NCBI RefSeq assembly: GCF_000001735.4 | Contig: NC_003075.7 | Location: forward strand, 7,627,001-7,691,000 | Reading direction: 5' to 3' | Origin: Arabidopsis thaliana | Lineage: Eukaryota > Streptophyta > Magnoliopsida > Brassicales > Brassicaceae | DNA: 64,000 nucleotides | In this document: piece by piece, positions 46,136 to 49,629 of the stretch | Layout of the letters: each line of letters opens with the position of its first letter | How positions within the stretch are numbered: position 1 is the stretch's first letter | Notes under the pieces: generated by a model | Told to the model about the DNA's origin: nothing | What the model saw: the letters and a program-made list of their open reading frames with translations, nothing else | Database searches by the model: none | Position numbers and translations under genes: made by a program

Positions 46136-46329
46136 TTATTTGTATTTGTATAACCAAAGCCGAACACATATGGAAAATATATGAAAACTGCGAGAACGAA
46201 GAAAAAAGAACTCATTCTTCGTTGTTCCCATGTTTTGATTTCAAGTTGTAGTATAGTGCATTGCTCTACTAGTGTATATCTACAATATCTTCTTCTTACA
46301 AATCATCTTCACTCTATATACTATTATTT

Positions 46330-46680
46330 CTCTTCTTGTTCTGCATATACCTGATTAATAACGAGGCCATGACTACAATACTGGTCATTAAACCTATCAC
46401 AAGACCAGCAACAGCAGTTGCTCGCAAACTAGAGGAACCTAGACCGGGTTTTATAGCTAACCCACAAAGACTTGGACTGTTCCCTTCAAAGACAAGTTTT
46501 AATCCACCAAAACTTGGTAATACTCCAGTGAAGTTATTGTCAGAAAGGTTTATGTTTTTCGAGTTTTAACAGAGTCAATCCCCTCAGGAACAACACCCTC
46601 AAACATGTTACTTGACAAATCAAGCTCCTTTAAACTTGGGTATAAACTCAGGGAAACCACCAGATATGTTTTTACCACCA
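46330..46680 (-). pseudogene. TMKL1-like LRR receptor kinase fossil
   Basis: Minus-strand pieces in more than one frame read FPEFIP, LDLSSNMFEGVVPEG, INLSDNNFTGVLPSFGG, FEGNSPSLCGLAIKP, then a membrane helix AVAGLVIGLMTSIVVMASLL and a basic stop-transfer MQNKKRN, followed by a stop. The order and wording match the last LRRs and transmembrane segment of Arabidopsis TMKL1 as I remember it (EGNSPSLCGLPLKPCLGSS, AVAGLVIGLM). The kinase domain and most LRRs are gone and the frame shifts at least once. It sits directly 3' of the pectate lyase gene, tail to tail. Confidence 0.7.
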
Positions 46681-47430
46681 AAATCAAGAACTACAAGTAG
46701 AATCTGGCGAAGCAGGCTCAGGAAAATCCCCAAACAACAAACTTTCATGAACCCTGAAGGCTAACATGGGAAGTGAGAACAAAGAGCAAAAACCAAAGTT
46801 TGGAAAAGAGAAAGAGTAACAACGTTTCTTGGCATATAAACATGTTCCTTCACATTGCTACACATCCAAATGAAAAAACGAGTACACACTAACAAGAGTA
46901 TCACAAGAGACATACACCACAAACTCAAAAAACCATTTATTTTGTTATACTGTTTACCAAGAGGAAAGTGATGCTTTGTGTTTTTGTTTATCTATAAAGT
47001 AATCCCTCAAAGGTAAAGAATATACATAGGACTTGTTAACAACATGTGAAGCATCCGATAAGAGAGAACATTGCAGGATAAAAGAACCAGAAGAAAAAAA
47101 GGTAAAAGAGAGATTAAGCAATGAGAAATGAGAAACTACGCTACGACTTAAACCACATCTGAAAATGTTTCACTCCTATCAAATTAGTCTCAATGATCAT
47201 TCAAAATCCTGAGAGAGGACTTGCTAGTTGCAGCAAAATTTTCAATGATTGCTAATGCTACAACCGTTTCCCCCAATATATTCCAATGTCGAAACTAATA
47301 AAGTTTTGGTATTAGAGGTAACAATTTCTTAAAGAACATATAACATTCCTAAGTATTGTATCTGTATACATTGGAGTTCTGTCTCATGAGCAAAATCTTA
47401 AGCTTAAGTTACATGTAAAGAAGACAACGC
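46681..47430. other. Intergenic, degraded sequence
   Basis: The left part may continue the receptor fossil, but no further match is clear. The right part is the likely 3' UTR of the next gene. No gene supported. Confidence 0.45.
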
Positions 47431-48275
47431 TTACTTGTACTTGTCCATGATTTTCTTTGCTTCTTCAAGTGGATCATCCATTGACTTAGAACCAGAGCTA
47501 TTATCATCTCCTCTTAGTTTAGGAGCTTCATCTTTGTTTAAAGCTATGAATAAGAAATATGCAAATCCCATTGTACCCTGCAACACTCACAGAGAATTAG
47601 CTTTGCAAACACCTAAAAAAAAATCCTAGAAAAAAGAAAGGGGACACACACAACACAACATACCAATACAAAGAAAGCTGTCGATAGAAACGACTTGACA
47701 ACAAACAACGAAACCGCCAATGCTGCAATTGTCACAGAGATTCTCGCTACTGGTCTAGGCACAGAAACCTTATAACAAAAAAGTATACTGGTAAACATAA
47801 CCAAGTATGACTAAAACCATTTAGAGTAGAGTTTGATTAGTGAAGACAAGACTAAAGAGAGCTCACAGGTACAAGATTGGTTCCAGCTTCAATTCCATCT
47901 TTCCCAATATTCCACGCAGTTCTAAGAACTGTTCAACAAAATCACACAAACATTATTACTAAACTCTGTTGCAACAATTTCTTCATCAATCAATGACCCT
48001 TTTGCTCAATTTCATAGACATAGCTATCAAAAGAACAAAGTGAGGGTAAAGAACAAACCTTTCAAGAAACTGGACTGAGCAGACAAAACAAGGGTTTTGG
48101 ACCGAAGTCGTTGTGGTTGAAGAGGAGCAATTCGAGTTCTCAAGTTGAGTAAAGATGCGTTTTTTAACTTCAAAACAGAGCATGGAGAGAGGAATGGAGA
48201 ATTGGGGAATTGGGTTAGGGTTTGTAAGAATCTTGGAGCGAGAGGCGAAGGATTCAAAGATAGAGAAGAAGCCAT
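47431..48275 (-). CDS. Predicted plastid membrane protein of unknown function
   Basis: Four exons (48059-48275, 47867-47928, 47664-47768, 47431-47577) give 176 residues; all junctions fit GT..AG and phase. The first 60 residues (MASSLSLNPSPLAPRFLQTL...) are Ser/Arg/Leu-rich without acids until late, a likely chloroplast transit peptide. Two adjacent hydrophobic segments follow (ISVTIAALAVSLFVVKSFL and FFVLGTMGFAYFLFIAL), then a charged tail ending EEAKKIMDKYK. I do not recognise a named family. Position suggests At4g13220. Confidence 0.82.
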
Positions 48276-48840
48276 GACATGTGATTGCTAAAGCCGCTTG
48301 ATTTACTACTCAGATTCTCTACAAGAAAAGACAAAAATTGGCCTGTTTTAGATAAGAAATTGAGATTGAATTGAAGCTGAGAAACTAATCGGTTTGAGTT
48401 CGGTTTGAGTTGAGTTTCGGATCGCTTTCGGTTATTGATAGATTCGTCGGCTAACCGACTGTATAACCGAATAGGAACCGATCATTTTTTTTTTTAATAT
48501 CTCGACCTTTACATTTCTGAGAGACAGTGAATTCATCTCTTTTGGAGAAGAGATCCCTTCTAACATGCCTCGAACTAATCATCTCCATCTGGAAGATTTA
48601 TGACTGGACCAATAACTCGTTGACCACTCACAAAAGTTTTCAATCAAGATTTACAAATATATCAAATTATTTTTATTAAAACAAACACATGAGTTTCTAT
48701 ATGATCATATCATAACCCGATTTATTCTTACCTAATAATGCAATATGTTTTCTCGATACAAACCAGAAGTGTAAAACAGATTAAAACAAACTCATTAGGT
48801 AAATAACATCTTATTTAATATAGTCAAATTTAGCGTGTTA
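48276..48840. other. Intergenic with CGGTT words
   Basis: The promoter of the previous gene lies at 48276-48480, including several CGGTT-type words (48390-48482) resembling those upstream of the hAT gene, but no element ends were found. The rest is the 3' flank of the LEA gene. Confidence 0.45.
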
Positions 48841-49629
48841 TTATTTGAGGTTCTTGGTGTTCATGCTTCTCTCAACGGTCTTGGCTGTGGCTTTAATAGA
48901 CTCCTTAGTTTCCTCAGTTTTTCCGGTGACCGTATCTTTGATCTTCTCCGTAGTGTCCTTCACCTTATCCCAGGCCTCCTCTGCAGTGTTCTTTGCCTTA
49001 TCCTTCAAGTTACCCGCCGCATCGGAGATCGTCTGTGCCCCTTCGTCTGCCTTCTTGGCCACCTACACCAATCATGTTTAGTTTGGATAACGGAAGCATA
49101 AAACCAAATGTAAAGACAATTACAAATAAAGAAACAAAACAGATTTTTTCTTTTAATATTGTTTGTTACAAATTTACAATCTATATATTATAACTAACTA
49201 TTTCAAAAATTAAAACAAAATCTATGTGGTAGTTATAAATGTAAAAGTCAAATACAAACTATACTTAAAATATTCAAACACAAATTTGACATGTAAACGC
49301 AAATGCACATTGCAAAAAATGATGTTTAAAACATTAAGGCCACAGTTCTTCTTCTTCTTCTTTTAAACTTTAGGAAAATAGCTAGGATACCTTTTGTTGA
49401 GCCTCTGTGGCTTTGTCACAGACGGAGTCTTTCCTCGTAGAAGTAGTCCCCTTAAATCATTTAAAAAAAAATGAAGGATAACTAAAATTTGTTACAAATA
49501 TTAAATAAATATGTATGATAAATTCATACGAAAAGTAAAAGAGATTACATGGACGAGTCTTGTCGGGACGGAAGCACGAACTCTAGGAGCTCTTGTAATG
49601 AGTCTTGCAACGACCGCGAAGCTTGTCAT
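48841..49629 (-). CDS. Late embryogenesis abundant-like protein, organelle-targeted
   Basis: Three exons (49549-49629, 49391-49450, 48841-49062) encode 120 residues. The first exon (MTSFAVVARLITRAPRVRAS...) is Arg-rich, acid-free and amphipathic, the pattern of a mitochondrial presequence. The rest is a Lys/Glu/Ala/Thr-rich stretch of 11-mer-like repeats, e.g. AGNLKDKAKNTAEEAWDKV and KDTTEKIKDTVTGKTEETK, as in LEA_4-type proteins that fold into amphipathic helices on drying. Probably At4g13230. The last-exon open frame looks like a start but is really GTG after a splice acceptor, so the three-exon model is preferred. Confidence 0.85.

Follow-up and report, generated by a model that had tools for sequence, protein, structure and literature searches.

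A probable relic of a duplicated TMKL1 receptor kinase gene beside a pectate lyase gene on chromosome 4 of Arabidopsis thaliana

A broken copy of part of the receptor kinase gene TMKL1 lies beside a pectate lyase gene in the window, the 64,000 nucleotides of Arabidopsis thaliana DNA analysed here (C4:7627001-7691000). We consider it very probable (about 95%) that this is the dead and mostly missing TMKL1 duplicate which arose when the chromosome segment was doubled, and which was lost by fractionation with the chromosome 3 copy kept. Its status as a fractionation pseudogene rests on homology, collinear position, orientation, a broken frame and missing ends. The kind is already known, and the relic is a clear but ordinary example of it.

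Likeness to TMKL1 and state of decay

The genome searched comprised seven contigs (119,662,809 bases), chromosomes 3 and 4 being C3 and C4. The intact gene on chromosome 3 comprises two frames: a first of 476 codons, open from 9003641, and a second, reaching to 9005751, that carries a protein kinase according to Pfam. From its sequence and place, we take this gene (chr3:9003641-9005751) to be TMKL1, and presume its number to be At3g24660. The first-pass annotation had placed a TMKL1-like fossil at 46330-46680. That interval does carry real TMKL1 homology, matching chr3:9004259-9004623 in the genome DNA search (E 1.3e-53, 73% identity), but it was drawn too narrowly: the homology spans 46278-46758, or 46292-46758 by a stricter blastn. 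The alignment score against the TMKL1 gene is 363, as compared with a maximum of 35 in 200 dinucleotide shuffles. The relic corresponds to TMKL1 codons 177-345, i.e. the late LRRs, the transmembrane segment and the start of the juxtamembrane region.

46278..46758, minus strand: TMKL1 relic; aligned with chr3:9004169-9004675 of this genome, 375 of 478 bases being identical; seven non-triplet indels, three in-frame stops
46314..46565, minus strand: longest still-open piece, 83 aa, a stop-to-stop frame with no start codon implied; last LRR, FEGNSPSLCGL and transmembrane segment; 68% aa identity to TMKL1
46550..46690, minus strand: second open piece, in a different frame, containing an LRR (Pfam LRR_1, E 0.0014, 18.8 bits, below the family cut-off of 20.6)

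The LRR, FEGNSPSLCGL and AVAGLVIGLM segments read earlier from the letters are indeed present on the minus strand within 46314-46690, split over two reading frames. Along the relic 157 codons align to TMKL1 without gaps, and three in-frame stops are found among them; a translated search across the relic passes eight stops inside it. In the alignment used, none of the seven indels relative to TMKL1 is a multiple of three, and the deletions include ones of 11, 8 and 8 bases. These indels together with the in-frame stops exclude a TMKL1-like protein, so that, as judged from the sequence, a TMKL1-like receptor cannot be made from the relic. Its coding capacity is destroyed by indels, stops and the absence of 5' and 3' parts, a state consistent with the earlier description of a gene caught partway through decay.

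Both ends are missing. The chromosome 4 copy lacks about 176 first codons with the upstream region. At its other end it breaks off after codon 345, and the kinase region and the intron are absent as well. The kinase-like region of a working TMKL1 or LRR receptor-like kinase is not present in the relic, and Pfam finds no kinase family in four open pieces of the relic region. Relocation of the kinase or N-terminal part to another site was considered and rejected: a DNA search at E 0.001, which passes over simple repeats and very common words, placed the missing TMKL1 5' and kinase DNA nowhere but at TMKL1 itself. Possible further TMKL1 sequence in 47430-46759 was at chance level against chromosome 3 (score reached by 121 of 300 shuffles), and the resemblance of 46860-46759 to the start of the chromosome 3 gene, which was reached by 13 of 300 shuffles, came through a CTCTTT run. 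Further upstream (48503) is a 24-base A-rich match reached by none of 50 shuffles, which is of low complexity.

On the kinase side, the distance from relic to pectate lyase is 132 bases on chromosome 4 versus about 1.5 kb on chromosome 3, and the spacer at 46146-46277 has in common with chromosome 3 a 28-base stretch only.

46243..46270, minus strand: 28-base match to the chromosome 3 TMKL1-pectate lyase spacer (9005965-9005992); 23 of 28 identical, score 31

This score was reached by none of 300 shuffles, the margin being narrow (best shuffles 28 and 29 in two runs). The stretch may possibly mark the far side of the kinase deletion, in which case the deletion would fall between chr3 9004676 and about 9005964. 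The surroundings of the presumed kinase deletion have direct repeats of 6-base words only in common.

The collinear block and relaxed constraint

The first-pass annotation gave TMKL1 as the neighbour of a pectate lyase gene on chromosome 3. This is the case: TMKL1 (plus strand) stands tail to tail with a pectate lyase gene (minus strand, 9008629-9006195) paralogous to the one beside the relic, and on chromosome 4 the relic (minus strand) and the pectate lyase gene (plus strand, matches ending at 46145) are convergent in the same way. A pectate lyase table lists At3g24670 as AtPLL22 and At4g13210 as AtPLL23 in the portion drawn on here (PMC12693861).

43205..46145 (extent of matches), plus strand: adjoining pectate lyase gene, paralogue of the chromosome 3 pectate lyase; five blastn pieces, 77-82% identical, to chr3:9008629-9006195
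35.7-39.3 kb (four pieces), pectate lyase (five), relic, 48.9-49.1 kb (one), 53.1-57.1 kb (five): blastn pieces of the block, inverted and collinear with chromosome 3

When the window was compared by blastn (threshold E 1e-4) with 90 kb of chromosome 3, all 16 pieces fell in one inverted order. In the translated search of the same two stretches, 102 of 118 rows lay within 3 kb of the collinear line; of the 16 rows off the line, ten were at 32.9-33.9 kb, a stretch that also resembles the TMKL1 kinase frame (42% identity), and six lay at scattered places, including one a little outside the first anchor. The collinear inverted block and the convergent pectate lyase pair support the proposal that a gene was lost here after whole-genome duplication. 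By position and divergence, the doubling would be the event that we take to be the Brassicaceae alpha whole-genome duplication. It would have placed a second TMKL1 copy beside the paralogous pectate lyase gene. Deletions would then have removed the beginning of the coding sequence as well as the kinase region, and the remainder would have been broken by stops and by small indels of non-triplet length, in whatever order the damage may have come. The chromosome 3 TMKL1 would have been retained and the chromosome 4 copy lost by fractionation.

Two further stretches of the block were observed. In the translated search (E 0.001), nothing in the 90 kb of chromosome 3 matches the region 46759-48859, where a minus-strand gene ends near 47431, save at the edge of the relic. 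Likewise, chr3 8993000-9003500, just before TMKL1, has no translated match in the collinear part of the window; it holds a large open frame (L006 7764-9650), presumably ABI3. Gene losses seem to have gone in both directions, on chromosome 3 and on chromosome 4.

Constraint on the relic was compared with that on two pairs of functional genes in the block. For the first of them, the pectate lyases, the comparison used 373 codons from four exon pieces, whose ends are approximate. For the second, at 53.7-55.4 kb, it used four frames of the plus strand, with 78-91% aa identity, which were selected once the identities had been seen. Among 0-fold sites, 49 of 295 are different between the relic and TMKL1, against 57 of 736 in the pectate lyase pair (Fisher P 5.8e-5 for the excess in the relic) and 62 of 758 in the 53.7-55.4 kb pair (P 1.3e-4). 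The corresponding four-fold figures are 21 of 67, 70 of 165 and 78 of 154, so that the relic is less diverged than the 53.7-55.4 kb pair (P 0.008) and not clearly less than the pectate lyase pair (P 0.14). K0/K4 is 0.46 for the relic (bootstrap range 0.29-0.82), 0.13 for the pectate lyase pair and 0.10 for the 53.7-55.4 kb pair. The relic shows relaxed constraint relative to the functional pairs. With the untrimmed set at 53-57 kb the contrast is weaker (137 of 1103 at 0-fold and 95 of 223 at four-fold sites); that set comprises six frames on the plus strand, of which two have aa identities of 62% and 56%. A minus-strand set there (four frames, 274 codons) was dropped, as it is not the coding strand of that pair.

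The lower four-fold divergence of the relic speaks against a simple shared clock; it may possibly reflect the small sample, a locally slower rate or a later exchange between the copies. A simple dating model, with four-fold sites as a neutral clock and omega assumed, is not relied on. For omega 0.05 to 0.2 its medians for the dead fraction of the time since duplication ran from 0.86 to 0.64 with local four-fold sites and from 0.49 to 0.21 with pooled ones; the 95% ranges lay between about 0 and 1.68, and at omega 0.3 the values were 0.47 and -0.04. An intact paralogue, a collinear block with retained pairs, loss of coding and relaxed constraint, four marks of a fractionation pseudogene, are found here. 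The relic is most likely without function.

Other origins and possible functions

LRRs are common to many receptors, and another LRR receptor gene might be the source of the fragment. With the first TMKL1 frame as query, at least 181 matches are found in the genome at E 0.001 (89 scored among 1003 candidates), and by score the relic is fourth among the matches listed, behind TMKL1 and two longer functional stretches. It nevertheless has the top identity among them after TMKL1 itself (59% versus 50%). In a translated genome search returning seven matches at E up to 1, self included, the 83-aa piece scored 97 bits to TMKL1 versus 22 bits at the next place, so the attribution to TMKL1 held, and a better match to an unrelated LRR receptor, which would have spoken against it, was not among these seven. 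The DNA search likewise found for 46330-46680 no match in the genome beyond itself and TMKL1 at E 0.001, and for the flanks of the relic the window itself and further TMKL1 matches only. We therefore hold a different receptor to be exceedingly improbable. A TMKL1 piece might instead have been inserted later, by retroposition or ectopic copying, without segment duplication. Since the retained part stops short of the intron between the two chromosome 3 frames, a cDNA origin would be compatible with the intron content; the four-fold sites, as described above, have also changed somewhat less than those of one functional pair. PMC2817689 describes, in the portion drawn on here, a further intron within the predicted first exon of At3g24660. 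However, an insertion would have had to fall at the collinear place, in the expected orientation and beside the paralogous pectate lyase gene, with a match to the chromosome 3 spacer on its far side, if one only narrowly above shuffles. Such an insertion thus seems very unlikely.

Preferring the relic of a segmental duplicate, one may still ask about its activity. The sequence might encode a truncated LRR-transmembrane protein or carry a functional non-coding or antisense transcript: the transmembrane segment is kept in the 83-aa piece, and 11 of the 461 21-base words of the relic are one base off the TMKL1 gene. Yet the reading frame is already disrupted upstream of the piece, change at 0-fold sites is in excess, and no 21-base word is identical to TMKL1, the longest exact match being 17 bases. 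We see little chance of a working short gene. It is likewise hardly probable that RNA from the relic, for example read-through from the convergent pectate lyase gene, would be antisense to TMKL1 and tune it via small RNAs; if it were so, a dead duplicate would regulate its surviving twin.

Comparison with known cases of gene loss

The chromosome 3 TMKL1 and the relic are alike in 375 of 478 bases, in their neighbour and in their convergent arrangement; unlike the former, the chromosome 4 copy is frame-broken, starts only after about 176 codons and has no kinase region. Loss of duplicates through deletions is a known course of fractionation, as described in the portion of the maize study drawn on here (Woodhouse et al. 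2010, PMC2893956). There, as in the relic, a gene was lost from one of two duplicated segments by short deletions, of 5-178 bases in maize and including 11, 8 and 8 bases in the relic. The relic differs from the maize cases reported in that portion (PMC2893956) in having two large missing parts besides. Direct repeats were reported there at 10 of 16 gaps (PMC2893956), whereas in the relic, where the kinase deletion alone was examined, only the 6-base words were seen. In willow/poplar, salvia/teak, flax/rubber and pear/apple, relics after genome doubling were described as rare or very transient, according to the part of that work drawn on here (Yu et al. 2020, PMC7775554). A relic that is still readable would be a small counterexample to this description (PMC7775554) or a sign of late loss. 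It shows the dismantling of a duplicated receptor gene in one place, with both ends missing and the middle strewn with small indels.
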